Source: Candidatus Nanohalarchaeota archaeon (GTDB lineage Archaea > Nanohalarchaeota > Nanosalinia > Nanosalinales > Nanosalinaceae). Taken from it: a stretch of DNA of 64,000 bases. The DNA lies in NCBI GenBank assembly GCA_022729235.1, contig JALDAJ010000001.1, positions 948,442-1,012,441 of the forward strand, given 5' to 3'. Shown here one piece after another: positions 29,024 through 63,357 of the stretch; position 1 is the first letter of the stretch; every line of letters starts with the position of its first letter. The position numbers and the translations under genes are program-made. The notes beneath the pieces were generated by a model. It did no database searches and was not told the DNA's origin. It saw nothing but the letters and a program-made list of their open reading frames with translations.

Positions 29024-30166
29024 TTGAAAGAAAACTATATGCTCCGTATCAAAGCGAAGATTGAAGACTTAACTTATAACCCGACTATGTGCAAAAATCT
29101 AAACAAATACAGCCTCAATGAATTTTATTCCGGGAAATCTTTCCAAGATGCTGCCTTTAGAGTCCAACCAGAAGAAAACGAGTACGCAATAAGTTGGTGG
29201 GTATCGCCAAAAAGAACGAGAAGCTATCCGAGGGCAAGAGTATACGACACCTATAACCACAAAAACAGGGTCACCATAATCCCTCTGGTTAAGGATGAAG
29301 GAAAAGACGGAGAGAGGGACTACCTACAGTGGGATACTCTATCGCTGATGAGCCTCTTACAAGTAAACGTTATCATAGCTCCCTACAAGAATGCTGAGAA
29401 AAACGATAACTACGATAACAAGATAACTAACCAGAAATTCGACTTTGAATACATAAAGGAAAAATTTGAAGAACTACAGAACTATCAGTCCGATGCTCTG
29501 CACTGGAATTTAAAACAGGCCTCAGAACTTGGAGAAGTAGCTGAACTAAGCAAGAAATATTACTACGATAAGATTTCCTCCAAAACAGGGGTAAAGATGC
29601 ATAGTAAGAAGCACTTCGAGAAACGGATGGATAAAATAACAGAAGAAGCAGATAGGTTCAAGAAAATGTCCAGGAACCTTGCAGAAGAAGCGCAGAATAG
29701 AGAAGCCCTGACACTACAACCTAAAGAGAGTACAAGAACAGACAAATGCGTGATCACAATCCAGAACCACCTGGGCGGAGAGTACTACTTTACCTCTGAC
29801 GAGGTCATGAGATCAGAAGATAAAGTATTCCTGATAGAGAAAAAACATACAAGAGACGTGTTTCCTAGCCTAGCAGATATTAAAAACGGCTTGGTAAGAA
29901 TGATGTTATTCAAGAATCTGAGTACCGTAAAGGCAGAAGGTGACGAACTGGAAGCAGTTCCAGTCCTCGGAATTACGGGTGATGAGTTAGAAGGTTACTG
30001 CTCCAACTCAGAAAATATAGAAGATAATCTAGGAGACGGCATCTCTGATAAGAAAATTGACGATATCAACTCCTTAATGCAGGAAGCAAACGAAAACGAT
30101 TTCACAGTGATAATCTCTCAGAACAACGACTCAGTTGAAGATAAACTATACAGTAATATTATGTGA
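29024..30166 (+). CDS. putative type II restriction endonuclease
   Basis: A 380-residue protein starting at TTG 29024, or 375 residues from ATG 29039. The N-terminal region WWVSPKRTRSYPRARVYDTY then IIPLVKDEGKDG and QWDTLSLMSLLQVNVI is a block I associate with restriction endonuclease-like proteins. Later, GGEYYFTSDEV and KVFLIEKKHT resemble the acidic and ExK parts of a PD-(D/E)XK site. Two DNA methyltransferase genes follow on the same strand, which supports a restriction role. Composition is AT-rich with heavy AGA/AAA use, unlike neighbours, which suggests recent acquisition. The assignment rests partly on context. Confidence 0.6.
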   Translation: MKENYMLRIKAKIEDLTYNPTMCKNLNKYSLNEFYSGKSFQDAAFRVQPEENEYAISWWVSPKRTRSYPRARVYDTYNHKNRVTIIPLVKDEGKDGERDYLQWDTLSLMSLLQVNVIIAPYKNAEKNDNYDNKITNQKFDFEYIKEKFEELQNYQSDALHWNLKQASELGEVAELSKKYYYDKISSKTGVKMHSKKHFEKRMDKITEEADRFKKMSRNLAEEAQNREALTLQPKESTRTDKCVITIQNHLGGEYYFTSDEVMRSEDKVFLIEKKHTRDVFPSLADIKNGLVRMMLFKNLSTVKAEGDELEAVPVLGITGDELEGYCSNSENIEDNLGDGISDKKIDDINSLMQEANENDFTVIISQNNDSVEDKLYSNIM

Positions 30167-30238
30167 TCTATATAGAGGTATACCTCATAAGAATAGGACC
30201 CGCGTTAACCTTTGGAACCTCTCCCTCAGGAGATAATT

Positions 30239-31456
30239 ATGAAGGATAACATAGCCTACACAAACAGTTATGAGCTTGAGAACAGCTATAAGAAAGCTAT
30301 TGATGACTGGCAACATCCCTTACATAGAACCTGTTCTCGTTTAGGTTCATTTCCACCGGAACTGGCACATTACTTCATCCAGAAATATTCAGATAAAGGA
30401 GACAGAGTACTGGACCCTTTCGCTGGCAAGGGTACAGCCCCCCTAGAAGCCTATCTTACTGATAGAATAGGTGTAGGAAACGATGCGTCCCCTGACGCCT
30501 ACATTCTAACACACGCCAAAGTCAAGCCTTCCAGTATCGAAGATGTTGAAAAGCGGCTGAAAGAACTAGAAAACAACTATGACGAACCAGATATAGAAAA
30601 TGTCGATGAGGATGTCAAGATTTTTTTCAGCGATCACAACCTCAGACAGATAGTATATCTGAAACGTGAATTGGGAGATAGCGATCTCGAGATATTCATT
30701 AAATCTCTGGTTCTCGGCATTCTTCACGGAAAGGGTGAACTCGCGCTATCTCTTCCAATGTCACATTCCTACTCGATGTCACCCTCCTACGTAGAAAAAT
30801 ATTCGGAGGAGAATGATCTAGAGAAACCGGAGAAAAACGTTTTCGAGGCGGTAAGAAAGAAGGCGGATAGGGTACTGGGTAGGCCTCTTAAAGAGACGAA
30901 AGGTGAAGCTTACTGTGAGGAGATTCTGGACTTGGAGTTTGATGAAAAGTTCGACCTGATAGTTACTTCGCCCCCGTACTACCACGCGCTTACTTATGCT
31001 TGGGATAACTGGCTCAGACTATGGTTCCTCGGCCACAACTTCAAGCAAGTCAGAGAGAAACTAATTCAGACCTCCGACGAAGAGAAATATGAGAACTACA
31101 TGAAAGATAGCCTGAGAAAAATGTACAAATGGCTCAAACCAGACTCTGCCTGCATTGTCGTTGTGGGAGACGTCACCAAGAAAGTGACCGAAAATGGAGA
31201 AAAAAAGAAGAAGATTATAAATACAGCGGAAAGGCTTGTGGAACCTGCTAAAGACGTAGGATTTGAAACCGATATACGCATCATAAATGACGAAGTGCCT
31301 GAAGAAGACAAGTACTCAGATTATATAGAATCAGAGCAAGGAGTTAAGATAGATCGAATACTTGAACTAAAGAAGGGGGATCCTGAAGAGACCGAGGTAA
31401 AAACTAACTGGAAGATACCCTTTATGTCAAGTCAAGACACGCTCGAAGATTTCTAA
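30239..31456 (+). CDS. DNA methyltransferase (SPPY type, N4C or N6A)
   Basis: A 405-residue methyltransferase. VLDPFAGKGTAPLEA (about residue 60) is the SAM-binding motif I and VTSPPYYHAL (about 240) is catalytic motif IV, so motif I precedes motif IV. TSPPY is most common in N4-cytosine enzymes. The ATG at 30239 was chosen because AGGAGAT lies 6-7 nt upstream; the longer frame adds nine residues. It follows the putative endonuclease by 72 bp and has the same AT-rich composition. The recognition sequence cannot be read from the protein. Confidence 0.9.
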   Translation: MKDNIAYTNSYELENSYKKAIDDWQHPLHRTCSRLGSFPPELAHYFIQKYSDKGDRVLDPFAGKGTAPLEAYLTDRIGVGNDASPDAYILTHAKVKPSSIEDVEKRLKELENNYDEPDIENVDEDVKIFFSDHNLRQIVYLKRELGDSDLEIFIKSLVLGILHGKGELALSLPMSHSYSMSPSYVEKYSEENDLEKPEKNVFEAVRKKADRVLGRPLKETKGEAYCEEILDLEFDEKFDLIVTSPPYYHALTYAWDNWLRLWFLGHNFKQVREKLIQTSDEEKYENYMKDSLRKMYKWLKPDSACIVVVGDVTKKVTENGEKKKKIINTAERLVEPAKDVGFETDIRIINDEVPEEDKYSDYIESEQGVKIDRILELKKGDPEETEVKTNWKIPFMSSQDTLEDF

Positions 31457-31594
31457 ACTTATGAAGTTTTTAAGACTTGATAAGACTGCTAGAGAGCTTA
31501 AATAAGTTAAAAGCATCTATAAACAATTTAAAGCAAATATGGATATACCAAAAGCATTGGTAATCTATAAAAGCCCTAAAAATAATCGATTAAC

Positions 31595-32479
31595 ATGGAA
31601 TTTAACGAGTTTGAAACATACGGAGAAAGAGATAGAGTAGTCAGAGGAGACTGCTTAGAGATAATGAAGAAAATGCCTTCTGACTCCATAACTCTTGGTT
31701 TTACTTCACCCCCTTACTTCAACGCGATTAATTACGATGCGCACATAGAGAAGCTAAATGATGAAAAAGATAGATGGGAGCGAGAAGATATTTCTTACAG
31801 CGAATATAGGCAGTTCCTCGTAGAACGCTTTGAAGAGCTTTTCAGAGTTATCAGGCCTGGCGGATATAACGTAGTTAACATAGCTCCTGTTTCCTGGAAT
31901 GGCAACAGAGTGCCATTACCGTTCCACTTCGTCACTTGGATGGAAGAAATCGGCTGGGAGTTTCAAGAGGATATAGTCTGGGAAAAACCAGTCGCAAGAG
32001 ACAGAAGATCAGGAGTCCTGATGCAAAATCCTTACCCTGGCTACTACTACCCAAGCCTGGTGACTGAATATGTTTTCGTATTCCAGAAACCGACAGACAG
32101 CGAGTCGAAACAGAATATTTACTGGCACCGGAGCGACCAGGAGAAAGAAGAAAACAAGCTTGATCTCTCCAATTATCAGGGAGAACAGAGCAAGAACAAC
32201 TGGAAGATAAGACCTTGTGCGCCGCAGGAGACAGATCATCCCTGCCCATTCCCAGTAGAATTAGCGGAGAGAGTCATCAAGTTCTACTCCTACAAAGGCG
32301 ATAAAGTCATCGATATTTTCGCTGGAAGCGGCAGCTCCTTGGTCGCAGCTGAAAAACGCGACAGAGATTACATAGGTATAGAAACACAACAAGAATACAT
32401 AGAGCAATCGTTGAACAGGCTGAATAAGATTAGAGAAAGCTCAAGCCAGAAGGAGATAAATCAGTTCTCCAAATCCTAG
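31595..32479 (+). CDS. beta-class DNA methyltransferase (SPPY type)
   Basis: A 294-residue methyltransferase with FTSPPYFNAINY at about residue 36 (motif IV) before DIFAGSGSSLVAAEKR at about residue 248 (motif I), the beta-class order and opposite to the preceding enzyme. EDIVWEKP and HPCPFPVELAERVI are typical of N4C/N6A beta enzymes. It is separated by a 138-bp AT-rich spacer from the first methyltransferase and may have its own promoter, a common arrangement for protective methylation before restriction. Two methyltransferases of different class suggest a non-palindromic target or two overlapping specificities. Confidence 0.92.
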   Translation: MEFNEFETYGERDRVVRGDCLEIMKKMPSDSITLGFTSPPYFNAINYDAHIEKLNDEKDRWEREDISYSEYRQFLVERFEELFRVIRPGGYNVVNIAPVSWNGNRVPLPFHFVTWMEEIGWEFQEDIVWEKPVARDRRSGVLMQNPYPGYYYPSLVTEYVFVFQKPTDSESKQNIYWHRSDQEKEENKLDLSNYQGEQSKNNWKIRPCAPQETDHPCPFPVELAERVIKFYSYKGDKVIDIFAGSGSSLVAAEKRDRDYIGIETQQEYIEQSLNRLNKIRESSSQKEINQFSKS

Positions 32480-37138: not shown

Positions 37139-37810
37139 ATGAGCTACAAGTTATCGCCGTCGCGGATCAACCTGTTCTTCGAGTGCAAAAGGTGTTTCTG
37201 GCTGAGGGTTAACGAGAAAGTGAAGAGACCGAGCGGTCCGTTCCCGTCACTACCCAGCGGGATGGACCGGGAGATAAAGGAGCACTTCGACCGTTTCCGC
37301 AGTAATGGCGGGACGCCCCCGGAACTTGAAGAGGCGGATATCGATGCAGAGCCCCTGGAAGATAAAGAGTTCCTGGAGAAGGCGCGGTCGTGGAGGTCGG
37401 AGCCGAAATGGAAGGATCCGGAGACCGGCGCCGTACTGAGAGGCGGGGTCGACGACCTGTTGAGAAGTGAGTCTGGCGATATCATAGTGATGGACTACAA
37501 GACCCGGGGCTACCCGCCGAAGCAGGATAACGGTGCGCCCGACTACTACAGGAGACAGGTCAACCTGTACAACTTGATACTCCGGGAGAACGGTTACGGT
37601 ACCGAGGACTTCGGGCTTATACTTTACTACTATCCCGACCGCGTGTTAGAAAACGGCGACTTCGTGTTCCACCGCGAATTAAGACGGGTAGAAGTGGACA
37701 TTGAGAGGTCGAAAGGACTGGTCAGGAATGCAGTAGGAGTCCTTGACGGTGACATCCCGCCCCACAGTGGAGATTGCGATTTCTGTGGTTGGAACGCGGC
37801 AGGGCGCTAG
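37139..37810 (+). CDS. PD-(D/E)XK nuclease with predicted Fe-S cluster (Cas4/RecB-like)
   Basis: A 223-residue nuclease. The catalytic core shows RGGVDDLLR (101-109) and IIVMDYKTRGY (115-125), with Asp105, Asp119 and Lys121 as metal-site residues. Four Cys at 16, 19, 213 and 216 (ECKRC and CDFC) bracket the core as in Cas4 and AddB, where they hold a 4Fe-4S cluster. There are no cas genes or repeats nearby, so a repair or mobile-element role is as likely as a CRISPR one. The next gene begins 50 bp downstream on the same strand. Confidence 0.85.
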   Translation: MSYKLSPSRINLFFECKRCFWLRVNEKVKRPSGPFPSLPSGMDREIKEHFDRFRSNGGTPPELEEADIDAEPLEDKEFLEKARSWRSEPKWKDPETGAVLRGGVDDLLRSESGDIIVMDYKTRGYPPKQDNGAPDYYRRQVNLYNLILRENGYGTEDFGLILYYYPDRVLENGDFVFHRELRRVEVDIERSKGLVRNAVGVLDGDIPPHSGDCDFCGWNAAGR

Positions 37811-37860
37811 AACAGACACGAGATTTTTATCTGTTTTCTAGTAACAACACATGTGGTATA

Positions 37861-39216
37861 GTGGATAGGTTTGTCATAGAACTCGATCAGGAGGAGAAAG
37901 AGGAACTCTTCGAACTTGCGAGCTTTCACTTTACACGGCAGAAAGACCTCCTGGAAGCGATAGATCTAGATAGGACGGTCCTTACTGAGCATCTTGAAGG
38001 CGACCTGGAAGCCATAGGCATTGACACTTTTGACAGATTACTGGGAATCGTCAATCGCTCAGCGCCCCGGTTCCCGCTTGACAACTCTGAAACCTACGTG
38101 GAAGATACTCTGAAACATCAGGGAGAGAAGAGGGTTAAGCTAGATGATGAGTTCCAGAGGTTCCTGTTCGAGCCCTACACGATAGCGGAGCTCGAAGATA
38201 TCACGGGAAAATCAGAGCAGACCCTGATAAAGTACCGGAACAACACCGCAAAGACTGTCCCGCGCGAGAGCTATGAGGAACTACTAGAGGATACCATAGA
38301 ACATTATAAAACAGTGATTAATCCCTCAGGAGATATCCATTTCAGGGGACCCCATAACAACAGTTTCTGTGGAGAAGAGGATTCCTTTCTTGTGGATGGT
38401 GGACCGTTCGAAGTACAGACTATCAAACAGGTGAGAGAGTACCTGAGAGAGATAGAGGACGAATCACCTTACCACTTCGGGATTCTTAAGAGTAAGTACG
38501 AGCACTTTGAAAGTGCCATAGAGAGGTTGGAAGAAGGAAAATCATATATAAAAGCCAGAGATAAATCTGAGGGGAAATTCTTCAGAGCTCTATCAGAACT
38601 TGGTCTAACGGAGAGATGGGGAGGTAAAGAATCTCCTTGGATGATGATCACAGAACCATATGTCTATGAAGTTGTGAAGAAGGAAGTTGAGGAGTTCATA
38701 GACGAGGAGGAAAACAGCTTTATCACCTACACAGTAGAAGAGCTACGTCAGACCGTCCAAGAGGCTTCAAAAGAAAGTGGCGATTCTCTGACCCGCGAAG
38801 GTTTTGACGAATGGGTCGATGAACAAGATGAAGATTATCCTAAGAGCCGCACAGTCAATGACAAACTCGGATGGCGCAATGCGCTCCAGGAAATAGGACA
38901 GAAACCTTCTATAAGAGAATATGACCGCGATATTATCATCGATCAGTTGCTAGAGAAGACACAAGAGCTAGGCTACGTCCCAACCATGACCGAGATCGAT
39001 GAGGATTCCGAGATGTTCTCTAGAAGCACGATGAAAAGTCACGACTTCGACAGCTACGATGACCTCCTGGAAGAGGCCGGCCTCTACACCAGAAAGAAGG
39101 TTGAAGAAAAGGTAGAGCCGTATGAAGAAATCGTAGAGGAGAGTATTGAGGACGATCCTTACTTTGTATCCCAGAGAGACAGCTCTCCACAGAAAGCCAC
39201 TGTGTCATCTGAATAA
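37861..39216 (+). CDS. protein with homing-endonuclease-associated repeat
   Basis: A 451-residue protein with GTG start at 37861; an in-frame ATG at 37774 would overlap the nuclease gene. Near the C-terminus, YDRDIIIDQLLEKTQELGYV then PTMTEIDEDSEMFSRSTM and FDSYDDLLEEAGL match the pattern of the HNH/homing-endonuclease-associated DNA-binding repeat common in haloarchaea. An earlier segment (EDYPKSRTVNDKLGWRNALQ) looks like a second, diverged copy. The N-terminal region includes TIAELEDITGKSEQTLIKYR, a possible HTH. No nuclease active site is seen, so DNA binding is the likely role. It may work with the PD-(D/E)XK nuclease upstream. Confidence 0.65.
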   Translation: MDRFVIELDQEEKEELFELASFHFTRQKDLLEAIDLDRTVLTEHLEGDLEAIGIDTFDRLLGIVNRSAPRFPLDNSETYVEDTLKHQGEKRVKLDDEFQRFLFEPYTIAELEDITGKSEQTLIKYRNNTAKTVPRESYEELLEDTIEHYKTVINPSGDIHFRGPHNNSFCGEEDSFLVDGGPFEVQTIKQVREYLREIEDESPYHFGILKSKYEHFESAIERLEEGKSYIKARDKSEGKFFRALSELGLTERWGGKESPWMMITEPYVYEVVKKEVEEFIDEEENSFITYTVEELRQTVQEASKESGDSLTREGFDEWVDEQDEDYPKSRTVNDKLGWRNALQEIGQKPSIREYDRDIIIDQLLEKTQELGYVPTMTEIDEDSEMFSRSTMKSHDFDSYDDLLEEAGLYTRKKVEEKVEPYEEIVEESIEDDPYFVSQRDSSPQKATVSSE

Positions 39217-41653: not shown

Positions 41654-42553
41654 CTAGATCGAATCGAGAGATATATCTGCAGCGAGTTCGTGACCGCCTC
41701 CGCCCCCAAATTCACCGTTATCATCTATTTCGTGATATCCACCGCATCCACCGCATTTCGCATACACGTCTCCATCATCACCAACTATCGTGTCGGGCTC
41801 TCCCGCGCCAGCCATATCATCCTGGTAACCTCCTTCACCATCTATCTCGGGTGCACGTAGCTCGACTGTTTCCTCGTCCATGTAGTCGTCTGCTGGCTCA
41901 AGTTCGCCACCGAACGTATCCGTGTCTGAAACAACTTCTCCCGATTCTTCGGCATGCTCTGCATAAGACTCTTCCATCCCGCTTTGATCATATACATCCA
42001 TATCCCCTGACTCGCCAGGTTCTAGTAAATCATCGTATCCCTCTCCGCCAAAGACATCTACTGTTCCCACTCCTGTCTCCGCCGTAAGTTCTTCGTAAGC
42101 TCCTGCAAGATCATCACCGTACTCATCGACTAATTCCTCAGCCGCGTACGATCCGTCTTCAAGCCCTTCAAGAAGTGCGTATGCTCCTTCCTGAGTTATA
42201 TTTAGAGAGTCATAGACCTCCTCATCGACTTCCCCCTCTGCTATAGACTCCAGTATATCCTTCAGTTCTTCCTCGCTTTCAACGTCCCCTATCTCAATTT
42301 CTCCTAGCTCATCCGATGTATTGCTCTCGTCATCAGAATCCTCTTCATCCTCACTTTCAAAACTAAACTGACCTTCTTTACCATCCTTTTTTATCCTCTC
42401 CAGCAGCTCTTCCAGCTCTTCCTTACTAAACTCCTCGTCATCCAAATCCTCGAGATCCAGCTCTTCTAGCTCTTCTTCTATACCCATCAGTTCTTCCGAG
42501 GGCTCAAGAGACAAATCCTGGAAATTGTTAATAATTTGTGCGACCTCAGTCAT
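41654..42553 (-). CDS. highly acidic protein with C-terminal CGGCGGYH motif
   Basis: A 299-residue protein, one third Asp/Glu. Residues 15-90 are almost pure acidic helix or coil (EELEELDLEDLDDEEFSKEE), the middle is low-complexity, and the C-terminus has YAKCGGCGGYHEIDD followed by GGGGGHEL, a compact set of Cys and His that could bind a metal. No signal peptide. It lies 86 bp downstream of the His-rich gene with a probable own promoter (ATTAATAAATAA near 42575). No family is recognised; it appears related in style to the two upstream proteins. Confidence 0.7.
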   Translation of the reverse strand: MTEVAQIINNFQDLSLEPSEELMGIEEELEELDLEDLDDEEFSKEELEELLERIKKDGKEGQFSFESEDEEDSDDESNTSDELGEIEIGDVESEEELKDILESIAEGEVDEEVYDSLNITQEGAYALLEGLEDGSYAAEELVDEYGDDLAGAYEELTAETGVGTVDVFGGEGYDDLLEPGESGDMDVYDQSGMEESYAEHAEESGEVVSDTDTFGGELEPADDYMDEETVELRAPEIDGEGGYQDDMAGAGEPDTIVGDDGDVYAKCGGCGGYHEIDDNGEFGGGGGHELAADISLDSI

Positions 42554-42638
42554 TATTCGTTATTAAGAACCACATTATTTATTAATATAGCGGAGAGCCT
42601 GTTATTCTCCTTTATCCCGGTAAAATAGAAGGGAAATA

Positions 42639-43727
42639 TCAGCTGTAAGCCAGTTCCTTGCCTTCATGATCCGCCAGGAAACTCTGGTATTCCTGTTCGA
42701 GTTCTTCGTCAACATCGTACCTGAGCTCCTTTTCCTTCATACCTCCGTACGCCAGGAGCCCTACTCCAGCTCCTAACAACAGCCCTGCAGGACCTAACAA
42801 GCTGGCTCCCAATGTGTAGGTGAGCCCTCCTAGACCCATGATACCTGCCCCTGCCGCACCATGCTTTCTTCCGCCAGAAAGCAGCTCGCTCATATCTTCA
42901 AGATCGTATTCTTCCTCCAGGACTATTTCTTCTCCAGTGATTTCATCGATATCATCCTTTATCTGCTCATACTGCTTTGCCCCTATATCCTCTATACTCA
43001 GATCAAGGTATCCTATCTCGCCACCCTGTCCCGCCTGATGTTCGTGATCATGGTCGTGATCATGGTCGTGATCATGGTCGTGAGAACAGCCCTCATGATC
43101 ATGCGCATGGTCTCCGTGATCATGGTCGTGACTGCATTCGCCATGACCGTGTTCATGATCATCGTGACCATCCTCCGCATGTTCGTCGGCAGGCAGTTCT
43201 TCATCCTCTTCTAAATACTCCTCTGCAGGTTCTATGTCCACCTCCAGGCTTGGACTCTTGTATTTTGCCTCTCCATCACTATTTATCATGTGGAAGGAAA
43301 GCTCTGTTGACCCCGGCTCAACTCCCTTGAGTTCAAGCAGCTCCTCGTCTGGAAGCCACTCGGTTTCTATCATGTCCTCATCTCCTGAACTCAGATACCC
43401 TACTTCCTCGTAAGGTACCTCGGCATCATATTCCGAGGCGTATTCGCTCTCATCAAATCCTGGTACCGCCTGATCAAACCCCAATCTGATATCCCCATCG
43501 ACCTCCAGAGGCTTATCCGCCACAGGTCCGCTGTGCCAGTGATCTCCAGAGACCCCGCCTAGCTCATCTCCTTCTTCATCTAAAATCCTGAATGATGCGA
43601 CTCCGAATCCGTCCTCCTGTTCAAGAGAGTCTTCTCCTTCGAAAGAACTCGGGTCGTGGTCACATCCCCCGCCACGAGAACCAGACAACTCGAATTCATC
43701 CGGTGAAGGAGGTGCCGGAGCGCTCAT
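42639..43727 (-). CDS. His-Asp-rich metal-binding protein with C-terminal membrane hairpin
   Basis: A 362-residue acidic protein in four parts: an N-terminal GGGCDHD motif (about 20-26); a beta-rich region (about 45-175) with an Ig-like look (EPGSTELSFHMINSDGE); a His-rich linker (about 185-235) in which His-Asp pairs recur and two CSHDHDH units occur, a likely zinc or nickel sink; and a C-terminal Gly-rich hydrophobic stretch (about 290-335, GLGGLTYTLGASLLGPAGLL) resembling a glycine-zipper hairpin, followed by an acidic tail. The start overlaps the upstream stop by 4 nt (ATGA), so the two genes are coupled. Confidence 0.75.
   Translation of the reverse strand: MSAPAPPSPDEFELSGSRGGGCDHDPSSFEGEDSLEQEDGFGVASFRILDEEGDELGGVSGDHWHSGPVADKPLEVDGDIRLGFDQAVPGFDESEYASEYDAEVPYEEVGYLSSGDEDMIETEWLPDEELLELKGVEPGSTELSFHMINSDGEAKYKSPSLEVDIEPAEEYLEEDEELPADEHAEDGHDDHEHGHGECSHDHDHGDHAHDHEGCSHDHDHDHDHDHDHEHQAGQGGEIGYLDLSIEDIGAKQYEQIKDDIDEITGEEIVLEEEYDLEDMSELLSGGRKHGAAGAGIMGLGGLTYTLGASLLGPAGLLLGAGVGLLAYGGMKEKELRYDVDEELEQEYQSFLADHEGKELAYS
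43044..43085. repeat. 12-bp tandem repeat encoding His-Asp pairs
   Basis: The unit gatcatggtcgt is repeated about three times in tandem and partly again to about 43135. It is a coding repeat for alternating His and Asp in the gene at 42639, not a CRISPR array: there are no spacers. Confidence 0.6.
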
Positions 43728-44116
43728 CGACGACCACCGAATTCAGTATCGTGAACAGTTTGAACATCATAATCTGTATCCCTCTTTACAGGAAGTTTTG
43801 CCTCATATCTTTCTCCTCGAGAGCCTACCGCTTCTATATGCACCCACGCATCAGGATTTTCAGACTGGCTCTGTAGACAGAAATAATCACGATTATCTCT
43901 AGTATCTGTATTTACCTCCACATCTCCAGATGCTTCAACACGATTTAGCTCTCCTCCCTCCTCCAGCATGTACCACGTCCAATTCTCCTCTTTACCTGCG
44001 TAGACAGCATCTTCTCCCGCGTGTCCTCCTCCGGAGTGCAAACATCCGCCGCCACAGGGCTCCAGATCTCTCATCGGATCAGGATCTCCGTTCTCATCCA
44101 GGAACTTGAATACCAT
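43724..44116 (-). CDS. small acidic protein with CGGGC-x2-H motif
   Basis: A 130-residue protein (start MVFKFLDENGDPDP at 44116; a longer frame adds six residues). DLEPCGGGCLHSGGGHAGED near the N-terminus is a compact Cys/His cluster; the remainder is beta-rich (WTWYMLEEGGELNRVEASGD, then AWVHIEAVGSRGERYEAKLP). It is the first gene of the coupled pair with the His-rich protein. The shared Gly-Cys-His motif in all three neighbouring proteins points to a common metal or cofactor. No family is recognised. Confidence 0.65.
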   Translation of the reverse strand: MVFKFLDENGDPDPMRDLEPCGGGCLHSGGGHAGEDAVYAGKEENWTWYMLEEGGELNRVEASGDVEVNTDTRDNRDYFCLQSQSENPDAWVHIEAVGSRGERYEAKLPVKRDTDYDVQTVHDTEFGGRR

Positions 44117-44319
44117 ATTGTTAATATGTATCAAAAAATTTAATAATACATGCTACATCTAACCATCCGAATTATTAACCGTTCTTTAAAAAATCTGGCT
44201 TTCCGGAACACTAAGAAACAGGAAATGTCCGATTTCAAAAACCTCTGTTTACCTCATCAAGGCTTTTGATACACTCTAACACCGGTTAGTATTTCAGTAA
44301 TGACGAAGCCTCAAACACG

Positions 44320-44457: not shown

Positions 44458-44587
44458 TGGTCCACCCGGGATTCGAACCCGGGACCGCCGCCTCACTCAT
44501 GGAGGCAACACACAGCCCTTCCGGGACAGTATTTTCCTGTGTGAGGTCCTTATAAGGACGGTGCTCTAACCCCTGAGCTAGTGGACC
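44458..44587 (-). tRNA. tRNA-Ile(UAU) with 57-nt intron
   Basis: Acceptor GGTCCAC pairs with GTGGACC, discriminator A, no CCA encoded. The D arm is GCTC/GAGC and the T arm CCGGG-TTCGAAT-CCCGG. The anticodon stem CCGTC/GGCGG forms only after removing an intron at 44494-44550, inserted after position 37; the loop is then CTTATAA with anticodon UAU. Pairing of loop bases CTTA with intron TGAG and of GGA with TCC gives a relaxed bulge-helix-bulge at the splice sites, and the intron has a CACACAG/CTGTGTG hairpin. Most archaea read AUA with an agmatidine-modified CAU tRNA instead. Confidence 0.8.
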
Positions 44588-46786: not shown

Positions 46787-47473
46787 ATGGACACATCCGA
46801 CGCCATCAAAGTCCGTTACTCAGGGGACAAAGAGTTCGAGATACTTGTAGAGCCTGACCTCGCGAAAGAGGCAAAACTCGAGGGTGAAGACCACGACATC
46901 CAGCGCCTGCTTTTTGTACAGGAGATCTTCACTGACGCAGGTGAAGGTGAACGGGCGGGCGCCGGCGAACTTGAAGACGAGTTCAACACCCGCCAGGTAA
47001 TAGAGGCTGCAGAAGAGATTTTTGAACGCGGAGAAATGCAGCTGACAACAGACCAGAAAGCGGAGATGCGGGAAGACAAGTACAGACAAGTTGTGGACAT
47101 GATTTCCAGACGTGCACAGGACCCGAAGACCGGTAACCCTCACCCACCACAGCGTGTGGAGAACGCACTTGAAGAAGCAGGGTTCCACGTCAACGCCTTC
47201 GACGACGTAGAAGAGAAGTTCCAGGAGGCTGTTGACGAGATAAGACCTATCATCCCTATCTCGCTCGAAGAGAAAACTGTCGCGATCAGGATACCTGCGG
47301 AAAATGCAGGGCAGGCATACGACAAGTTACAGAAAGCGGGCGATATGGAAGAGGAGCAGTGGGGTAACGAGTACTTCATGTGCAAGATGACACTACCCGC
47401 CGGAGTACTCAGTGAACTGATAGAGGAAGTACAGGACATGACATCCGGCAAAGCAGAGATGCAGGAAGTCTAG
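46787..47473 (+). CDS. sbds: ribosome maturation protein SBDS/Sdo1
   Basis: Needed for late 60S-type ribosomal subunit maturation (release of aIF6). The N-terminal FYSH domain (SDAIKVRYSGDKEFEILVEP, about 1-90), the middle helical domain with MISRRAQDPKTGNPHPPQRV and the C-terminal ferredoxin-like domain are all present in 228 residues. The position after psmA and before the exosome genes is the classic archaeal order. Its stop overlaps the stop of the opposite-strand protease gene by 4 nt. Confidence 0.96.
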   Translation: MDTSDAIKVRYSGDKEFEILVEPDLAKEAKLEGEDHDIQRLLFVQEIFTDAGEGERAGAGELEDEFNTRQVIEAAEEIFERGEMQLTTDQKAEMREDKYRQVVDMISRRAQDPKTGNPHPPQRVENALEEAGFHVNAFDDVEEKFQEAVDEIRPIIPISLEEKTVAIRIPAENAGQAYDKLQKAGDMEEEQWGNEYFMCKMTLPAGVLSELIEEVQDMTSGKAEMQEV

Positions 47474-48252
47474 AAAAGTCTTTCCGCGAACCGCTCTAGC
47501 TGTTCATCAGAGAAATTTTGCTCCTTAGAGAATAGGATTTCTTCATACATCAAATTGTTCTCATCATCAACATGCACCTCACCCAGAATGTGTCCTATCT
47601 CATGAAGCACGACATCTCTCAGACGTGGAGAATACCTGTTGAAACCATCCTCCAGAAGCCTGACTACCGCTCGGTCATATACCGCAGCACCTGCAGCCCC
47701 ACTATCCGAGCTTTCACAGCAACCCGGCTTTATCTCCCAAGGAACCATGAAAACTTGGATAGCAGCATATCTGTACCGAGAATCTATATCATTGTATACT
47801 ATATCCTGCAGACCAAGTATCTCTTCTAAATTTCTGGTGGATCCTATCAGCTGAGATACAACATCTTCTGACGTATCCAATTTCTGACGCGAAAATTTCT
47901 CCTTGTGTTCTAGGACCAGTGCGTTTATCTCCGGAGAGAATGCTTCCTCAATATCATCATAGACATCATACGATACTTCTACGCCTTCAGAAAGCCTTAC
48001 ATCCATCATCATGTTTGGTTCACCCTTCTTTAAGACATCTTCATGATAGCGATTGAAATCCTGCTCCACATCCTGCCAGAATTCATCATCCTCGAAATAG
48101 GTATCCGGCACACCATAGTACCCAAAACTGTCTGAAAGCACTAGTCCTGCGTTTTCTCCGAAGTATTTGAACGCTAGAGGACCCTTTATAGCGGAAAGAA
48201 CCGCTCCTCCAACCCATATTGCGGTGTCTCTGCGGGATATTTCCCGTTCCAT
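47470..48252 (-). CDS. metzincin-like zinc metalloprotease (matrixin type)
   Basis: A 260-residue protein with VVLHEIGHILGEVHVDD (about 215-231), the HExxHxxGxxH zinc motif of metzincins with catalytic Glu, and NNLMYEE just after it as the Met-turn. The N-terminus (ISRRDTAIWVGGAVLSAIKG) has twin Arg before a hydrophobic stretch, suggesting Tat export and an extracellular role. About 180 residues separate the signal from the catalytic site and contain YFEDDEFWQDVEQDFNRYH. It is inserted antisense between SBDS and rrp4 and is a diverged paralog of the next gene. Confidence 0.8.
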   Translation of the reverse strand: MEREISRRDTAIWVGGAVLSAIKGPLAFKYFGENAGLVLSDSFGYYGVPDTYFEDDEFWQDVEQDFNRYHEDVLKKGEPNMMMDVRLSEGVEVSYDVYDDIEEAFSPEINALVLEHKEKFSRQKLDTSEDVVSQLIGSTRNLEEILGLQDIVYNDIDSRYRYAAIQVFMVPWEIKPGCCESSDSGAAGAAVYDRAVVRLLEDGFNRYSPRLRDVVLHEIGHILGEVHVDDENNLMYEEILFSKEQNFSDEQLERFAERLF

Positions 48253-48297: not shown

Positions 48298-49182
48298 CTA
48301 CTCTCTCCACTGATCTTCCACAACCTTCCATTCTTCAGGAGTAAAGCTCAGGTCGGAGTCGGCCTGTACTCCTTCCTCGGCGTACATCACGTCCTGCGGG
48401 TTATCAGAGTGTTCCAGATCAAAGGCATGCCCTATATCATGCAAAGCCACCCTCTTCGTTCCCTCAATATACTCATCGCCGTAGAAATGTTTGAACCCTT
48501 CCTCAGGCGCCATAACGATATTCGTACCGCTGGCAATCGCCATGTAGACGCAGCCGTGGTCGTTATCGCAGTACTCCTCCTCCCAGTCAAGATCCTCTGT
48601 GAACTCCAGCGCACCCTCTGGTAGATCATATGAAGAACTCTGCACGCCCGGTGTCCGGAGTACCTGGATCGCGGCAACTCTTAGCTCCGCCGGTACCTCT
48701 CTTTCAAAGAAATCATCGTACCCTTCCTTGACACCGTGTATCATGGCTGCATCACCTCCGTACTCGTTGACAAACTCGTCCTCGGGATACGCGTATTCAG
48801 GTTTTCTCCGCCCTACAAACGCGTTTATCCCCTCATCTCCGACAGGCGCCTCGTTGTGTACCTCCTCAATGGCACGAGCCACTTCTTCCTCAAGTTGGTG
48901 GTCGCCTACAGGTATGACATCGACAAGGACATTAGGACGGTCAGGATCAAAACCCTCAAAATCCTCGATATATAGGTCTTCAAGCTCTGCCTCAAAGCGA
49001 GAGTTATCCTTCAGGTAATCAGGCACCCCTGTATAGTAAGGCGTCAGTAAGGTCTCCGGCGTCCCCTCAAGAGATCCATGTATCATAGCAGCCATACCTA
49101 CGCCCAGAGACTCCAGTAATCGCCTCCTCGTAGAGTTCAATCTCTCGGCGTATGATCCCAGACTACCCCGATCGAGAACCAT
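48298..49182 (-). CDS. metzincin-like paralog with altered catalytic residue
   Basis: A 294-residue paralog of the preceding gene. The zinc motif reads HDIGHAFDLEHSD with Asp where the catalytic Glu should be, followed by DVMYAEE as the Met-turn. Three zinc His are kept, so it may bind zinc with weak or no proteolysis. The N-terminus STRRRLLESLGVGMAAMIHG also looks Tat-like. Shared segments with its partner include a tyrosine-rich N-terminal region (YTGVPDYLKDN versus YGVPDTYFEDDE) and RVAAIQVLRTPG versus YAAIQVFMVPW. It precedes its partner in a two-gene antisense unit 45 bp apart. Confidence 0.75.
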   Translation of the reverse strand: MVLDRGSLGSYAERLNSTRRRLLESLGVGMAAMIHGSLEGTPETLLTPYYTGVPDYLKDNSRFEAELEDLYIEDFEGFDPDRPNVLVDVIPVGDHQLEEEVARAIEEVHNEAPVGDEGINAFVGRRKPEYAYPEDEFVNEYGGDAAMIHGVKEGYDDFFEREVPAELRVAAIQVLRTPGVQSSSYDLPEGALEFTEDLDWEEEYCDNDHGCVYMAIASGTNIVMAPEEGFKHFYGDEYIEGTKRVALHDIGHAFDLEHSDNPQDVMYAEEGVQADSDLSFTPEEWKVVEDQWRE

Positions 49183-62787: not shown

Positions 62788-63357
62788 ATGGCAGAGGAAC
62801 GTTACCAGTGCCCTCTATGTGAGAAATACTTCGGGTCTGAGGAAACATTCAGTGAACACGCCCGGATAGAGCACGATACAGAAGCCGTGGACATGGAGGA
62901 AGATGACCCGTTACTTGACGTGAACGGCTTAATGGCGAAGATTAGGTACAACTTCAACCGGTCGTTCCTGCTTGGTCTGGTACTAGGACTGGTGGTTTCC
63001 GGCGCCGCGTTTTCAGGCTATACCTACTGGGAATCACTCGACCACCGCGTAGAAGTCCCGGTAACAGTTGTCACGTGTGATGACTGCTCATACGGCGAGT
63101 TCCAGAACGCTACGGACAGGCTGTTTAACGCCGAGTACAGGCAGGTCGATTACCAGAGCAGTGAAGGCCAGGAACTAGTAGAGAAGTATGATCTCCAGTA
63201 CATTCCAGCATTCATCTTCGATCCCCAGGTAAAAGAGGCAGAGGACTTCTACAAAGTCGAACCTGTGATGATAGAGTACGAGGACGCCTACGTTATCCTG
63301 GACCGTGGCAACCTCGTCGCGCAAAGGCTGAGTGAAGGAATCGAGCTGGAGGAATAA
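62788..63357 (+). CDS. C2H2 zinc finger, membrane helix and thioredoxin-like domain protein
   Basis: A 189-residue protein with three parts: a C2H2 finger at the N-terminus (YQCPLCEKYFGSEETFSEHA with a second His in RIEHD), a transmembrane helix at about 60-78 (FLLGLVLGLVVSGAAFSGYT), and an outer domain with VTVVTCDDCSYGEF, a CxxC at the position of a thioredoxin-like active site, and LQYIPAFIF as the cis-Pro segment. By the positive-inside rule the zinc finger faces the cytoplasm. No family combining all three parts is known to me. A redox or assembly sensor spanning the membrane is possible. Confidence 0.75.
   Translation: MAEERYQCPLCEKYFGSEETFSEHARIEHDTEAVDMEEDDPLLDVNGLMAKIRYNFNRSFLLGLVLGLVVSGAAFSGYTYWESLDHRVEVPVTVVTCDDCSYGEFQNATDRLFNAEYRQVDYQSSEGQELVEKYDLQYIPAFIFDPQVKEAEDFYKVEPVMIEYEDAYVILDRGNLVAQRLSEGIELEE

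Follow-up and report, generated by a model that had tools for sequence, protein, structure and literature searches.

The window, a stretch of 64,000 nucleotides, belongs to a genome which consists of one contig of 1,027,595 bases and encodes a very acidic proteome. Its composition and its relatives point to a nanohaloarchaeon. Between positions 41654 and 44134, three co-oriented genes were found on the minus strand in the order P3, P2 and P1 (Table 1), as claimed by the original prediction of three adjacent ORFs for acidic proteins. The first two, P3 and P2, had also been predicted to be translationally coupled; the stop codon of P3 and the start codon of P2 indeed overlap as ATGA, which makes coupling plausible. 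P1 is separated from P2 by 85 bp and lies behind a TATA-like element of its own (TATATTAATAAATAA-like). Another TATA-like element is present upstream of P3. Since this element is located just upstream of the ATG at 44116 and fits this start better, the ATG is more likely to be used than the TTG at 44134. The codon usage of the trio is within about 1 standard deviation of the genome mean (mean of 338 genes) and thus typical of the genome, which supports the view that these are real genes.

Table 1. Features of the three-gene cluster. Positions refer to the window; residue numbers of the motifs were counted from the listed ORF starts.
Feature	Position	Strand	Description
P3	43724..44116	-	acidic protein of 130 aa (136 aa with the TTG at 44134 as start); perhaps a beta-sandwich, low confidence
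P2	42639..43727	-	acidic protein of 362 aa; disordered N-terminus, Ig/FnIII-like part, His-Asp tract, helix, hydrophobic hairpin, C-terminal helix
P1	41654..42553	-	extremely acidic protein of 299 aa; 35% D+E, 2.7% K+R; no hydrophobic segment
ATGA overlap of P3 stop and P2 start	43724..43727	-	likely translational coupling
P3 motif CGGGCLHSGGGH (C27, C31, H33, H38)	44021..44056	-	highest-scoring Gly/Cys/His stretch of the genome sample
P2 motif G19GGCDHD25	43653..43673	-	residues 19-25
P2 Ig/FnIII-like part	43224..43598	-	residues 44-168, low-confidence model
P2 His-Asp tract	43038..43181	-	residues 183-230, two Cys inside; 12-bp and 48-bp tandem repeats
P2 Gly-rich hydrophobic hairpin	42738..42860	-	residues 290-330, Lys/Arg on both flanks
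P1 motif C267GGCGGYH274	41732..41755	-	residues 267-274; H288 downstream

The motifs which had been described for the three neighbours (CGGGC-x2-H, GGGCDHD and CGGCGGYH) were all located, in P3, P2 and P1, respectively, and P2 contains both the long His-Asp run and the Gly-rich hairpin ascribed to it. The stretch in P3 reads C27-GGG-C31-L-H33-SGGG-H38, i.e. CGGGC-x-H-x4-H. P2 has 25 His in total, about 20 of which fall within the 48 residues of the His-Asp tract. At the DNA level, a 12-bp unit (ATGGTCGTGATC) is repeated in tandem in this tract (3.8 copies, 97% match), and this array lies within a larger repeat of 48 bp, which is present in 2.2 copies and carries C198SHDHDH and C214SHDHDH. The CGGCGG stretch of P1 is a 9-bp short tandem repeat.

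The rarity of these features was estimated from a background sample of 439 likely proteins, encoded in about 464 kb of the genome (the window plus 20 separate 20-kb stretches). A 12-residue window with at least four Gly, at least one Cys and at least two Cys plus His was used as a post hoc rule, which was passed by 12 of the 439 proteins. P3 obtained the highest score (10; runner-up, 7), and P2 barely passed. Three adjacent carriers would be expected under random placement with a p-value of about 0.006, a value obtained with a rule chosen after the data had been seen. The proteome contains 0.75% Cys. DNA encoding CGGGC-x(1-3)-H occurs twice in the whole genome, and the second copy of CGGGC-x-H was dismissed, as it is out of frame within a DNA polymerase D gene. 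A DNA polymerase D large-subunit-like ORF (L076:955-7308, 2117 AA) apparently contains two inteins, judged by eye. At least seven His within 20 residues were found in a single sampled protein besides P2, namely the zinc-uptake protein ZnuA (PF01297, E = 6.3e-74), next to which ABC transporter genes are located. The ZnuA region (L077:10025-13162) comprises ZnuA with its His-Asp loop, an ABC ATPase, a permease and, upstream, a CopG/NikR-like regulator (NikR assigned by eye).

Structures were modeled by single-sequence prediction, and the models are of poor quality, with a mean pLDDT of 46.5 for P3 and of 49.0 for P2. The low-confidence model of P2 residues 44-168 is beta-sandwich-like, and its fold is matched best by PKD, FnIII and Ig-like domains, with E-values no better than 0.04; CopC appeared lower in the list and was insignificant. 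No match at E < 0.001 was obtained in the fold searches. Two hydrophobic helices were modeled in the C-terminal part of P2 (about residues 294-332). The Kyte-Doolittle peak of the hairpin, 1.77 over 19 residues, is modest. Lys and Arg are present on both sides, which suggests that both hairpin ends are cytoplasmic.

Hydropathy did not reveal a signal peptide in P1, P2 or P3, and a membrane or hydrophobic segment was found neither in P3 nor in P1. Hence, the sorting signals, together with the Lys/Arg flanks of the P2 hairpin, give no support to a surface system, which had been suggested as one possible role of the cluster. The Lys plus Arg contents of P1 (2.7%) and P2 (4.1%) are among the lowest of the sample, which has a median of 11.2%, and most proteins at this Lys/Arg-poor end have an N-terminal hydrophobic or other membrane segment. 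Such a paucity is otherwise found in this genome mainly among exported or membrane proteins and speaks against a cytoplasmic location. The Lys/Arg content of P3 is ordinary.

No Pfam family could be assigned to P2 or P3, and NCBIfam, PHROGs and PADLOC gave nothing above the cut-off for the queries run. Six-frame searches detected no relative of the trio in the other 27 genomes of the phylum and, for P3 and P2, nothing beyond chance in 394 genomes from across the archaeal kin. Close relatives of P3 and P2 were absent from a scan of 84,980 species genomes, and those of all three proteins from the viral contigs scanned. Likewise, tblastn gave no hits for P2 and P3 in plasmids or for P3 and P1 in phages. 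Several weak matches were rejected. The C-terminus of P2 matched ORFs in about ten relatives which we read as TadC/ArlJ pilus-assembly-type membrane proteins, and hydrophobic residues alone align. P3 matched at chance level in the genomes G018 (E = 0.017) and G383 (E = 0.006, among the 394 genomes). For P1, a Pfam Rotamase hit (E = 0.007) was below the cut-off, and this hit as well as those in its own genome and in relatives mainly aligned acidic Glu/Asp stretches. A sequence relationship was detected neither between P1 and P2 nor between P2 and P3 (shuffled-alignment test for the latter pair, p = 0.155 local and 0.161 global), and a common Ig ancestry of P2 and P3, considered for the shared start ‘F-x-LDE-x-GD’, was not significant. 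Thus, the trio are orphans within the collections searched, in agreement with the original prediction, according to which the proteins match no recognised family and are otherwise different from each other.

In the relatives whose locus was compared, gene content is largely kept downstream of the proteasome alpha gene (psmA) and varies from genus to genus upstream of it. On the trio side of psmA lie a PHP/RNase P-like gene (putative function; weak matches in a few genomes), a tRNA gene with a large insert, the trio itself and then genes for two proteins with phosphoribosyltransferase domains and for one winged-helix protein. None of these neighbours is a metal transporter or a metal regulator, and more than 400 kb of the contig separate the trio from the ZnuA locus. 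The tRNA gene (44458-44587, minus strand; Rfam match of 52 bits, missed by ARAGORN) is about 130 bases long and, therefore, likely to contain an intron of some 55 bases. Integration at this tRNA was considered; a second copy of the tRNA 3' end was not found within the window and, hence, there is no sign of an integrated element.

Elsewhere in the window, two adjacent matrixin-like (M10) metalloproteases without an obvious signal peptide (47470-48252 and 48298-49182, minus strand) are located between SBDS-like and Rrp4-like genes, and, within the portion of the comparison covered, one relative (L060) has a partial counterpart. On the plus strand, a type II restriction enzyme (PADLOC PDLC03572, E = 5e-74) is followed by two type II methyltransferases (29024-32479) in the region of lowest GC content of the window (41-45%). 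At 37139-39216 (plus strand), a PD-(D/E)XK nuclease ORF overlaps an ORF of 480 AA in which a homing-endonuclease-associated HNH repeat is present. The protein encoded at 62788-63357 (plus strand) combines, by eye, an N-terminal C2H2-type zinc-finger-like motif, a membrane segment and a thioredoxin-like tail; a similar layout was seen, also by eye, at L078:10982-11968.

The reading we favour, tentatively and at somewhat less than an even chance, is that of a genus-restricted cluster in which P2 is an intracellular, membrane-tethered Zn/Ni buffer and P3 and P1 are candidate metal-site partners. Accordingly worded, a lineage-restricted, operon-like cluster of a nanohaloarchaeon would encode a protein, P2, which is tethered to the membrane by its C-terminal Gly-rich hairpin and exposes its N-terminal Ig/FnIII-like domain and the His-Asp tract on the cytoplasmic side. 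The tract would reversibly load several Zn2+ or Ni2+ ions and thereby act as a buffer. P3, produced from the same message as P2, and P1 would each have a single compact candidate site, formed by two Cys and two His; the two proteins may swap metal with P2 or may just be partners stabilised by Zn. The ORFs, their motifs and the ATGA overlap speak for this reading, as do the top rank of the P3 stretch and the low chance expectation for three adjacent carriers. Since the one other long His-Asp tract found in the sample belongs to ZnuA, the organism does employ tracts of this kind in handling metals. In proteins such as PA4063, His-rich loops have a share in the binding of zinc (PMC8561739). Homologs of the trio were not found, metal genes do not adjoin it, and neither P1 and P2 nor P2 and P3 are detectably related in sequence, all of which count against this reading, as does the fact that the P2 tract is an expanded simple sequence and could have arisen by slippage.

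The main rival is a strong alternative, although it also stays well below an even chance: the trio could be ordinary fast-evolving or new orphan genes at a variable spot upstream of psmA, with Gly/Cys/His stretches that reflect composition and repeat slippage rather than a role in metal binding. The change of gene content between genera on this side of psmA, the short tandem repeats behind the His-Asp tract (12 bp) and the P1 stretch (9 bp) and the complete lack of homologs are consistent with this explanation, and unassigned functions are common, concerning about 36-37% of the proteins of cultivated nanohaloarchaea (PMC10266531). It is weakened by the presence of rare Cys-containing motifs in three neighbouring proteins of a proteome with 0.75% Cys, and by the genome-typical codon usage.

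A role at the cell surface is unlikely. The proteins would be an adhesin or effector set for contact with the haloarchaeal host, exported by a non-classical route, in which the Ig-like domains bind and metal merely stabilises. Nanohaloarchaea are obligately associated with haloarchaea (PMC10266531), the P2 domain is weakly Ig/FnIII-like, and the paucity of Lys and Arg in P1 and P2 is shared with proteins that mostly have membrane segments; yet the trio is devoid of signal peptides, P1 and P3 have no hydrophobic segments, the charge around the P2 hairpin favours the inside and P3 is ordinary in Lys/Arg. Very improbable is a toxin/immunity-like or membrane-active peptide system, in which the P2 hairpin, as a Gly-zipper, would enter membranes and be neutralised by P3 or P1. 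Such a system would be in line with the Gly-rich hydrophobic hairpin, the coupled small gene and the species-specific distribution, but the hydrophobicity of the hairpin is modest, PADLOC, PHROGs and Pfam gave no match and viral or plasmid relatives were not found.

Transition-metal handling in tiny, host-dependent archaea is little described. As the set is small, comprises three easily expressed genes and presents clear candidate ligands, a metal role could be tested at low cost. Should this role fail, the trio would be a useful example of repeat-rich orphan genes mimicking functional motifs. In its furthest form, the metal-buffer reading would amount to an undescribed archaeal metal-buffering system of one nanohaloarchaeal genus, composed of an Ig-like protein that has a membrane hairpin and a His-Asp store and of two small C2H2-type partners, and perhaps serving to capture metal from the host cell; we consider this quite improbable.

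Among known systems, ZnuA of the same genome (PF01297, L077:10534-11640) is, like P2, an acidic protein with a His-Asp tract. In contrast to ZnuA, P2 lacks a signal peptide as well as neighbouring transporter genes, and it is not matched by PF01297. For the Ig/FnIII-like part of P2, a beta-sandwich topology as in FnIII/Ig-like modules (CbhA FnIII, 3pe9) and CopC (5icu) is suggested by Foldseek at E-values of about 0.05-0.09, with a model of the above low pLDDT and without a sequence match. SlyD/HypB-type proteins possess flexible His-rich tails which buffer Ni and Zn. A SlyD-type FKBP/PPIase domain was not found in P2 with Pfam and NCBIfam; an NCBIfam peptidylprolyl isomerase model aligned with residues 188-237, i.e. 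the His tract, alone (E = 0.97, 9.3 bits, cut-off 174). The His tract of P2 may work like the His-rich stretch of SlyD/HypB, in a protein which has neither the FKBP nor the GTPase domain.
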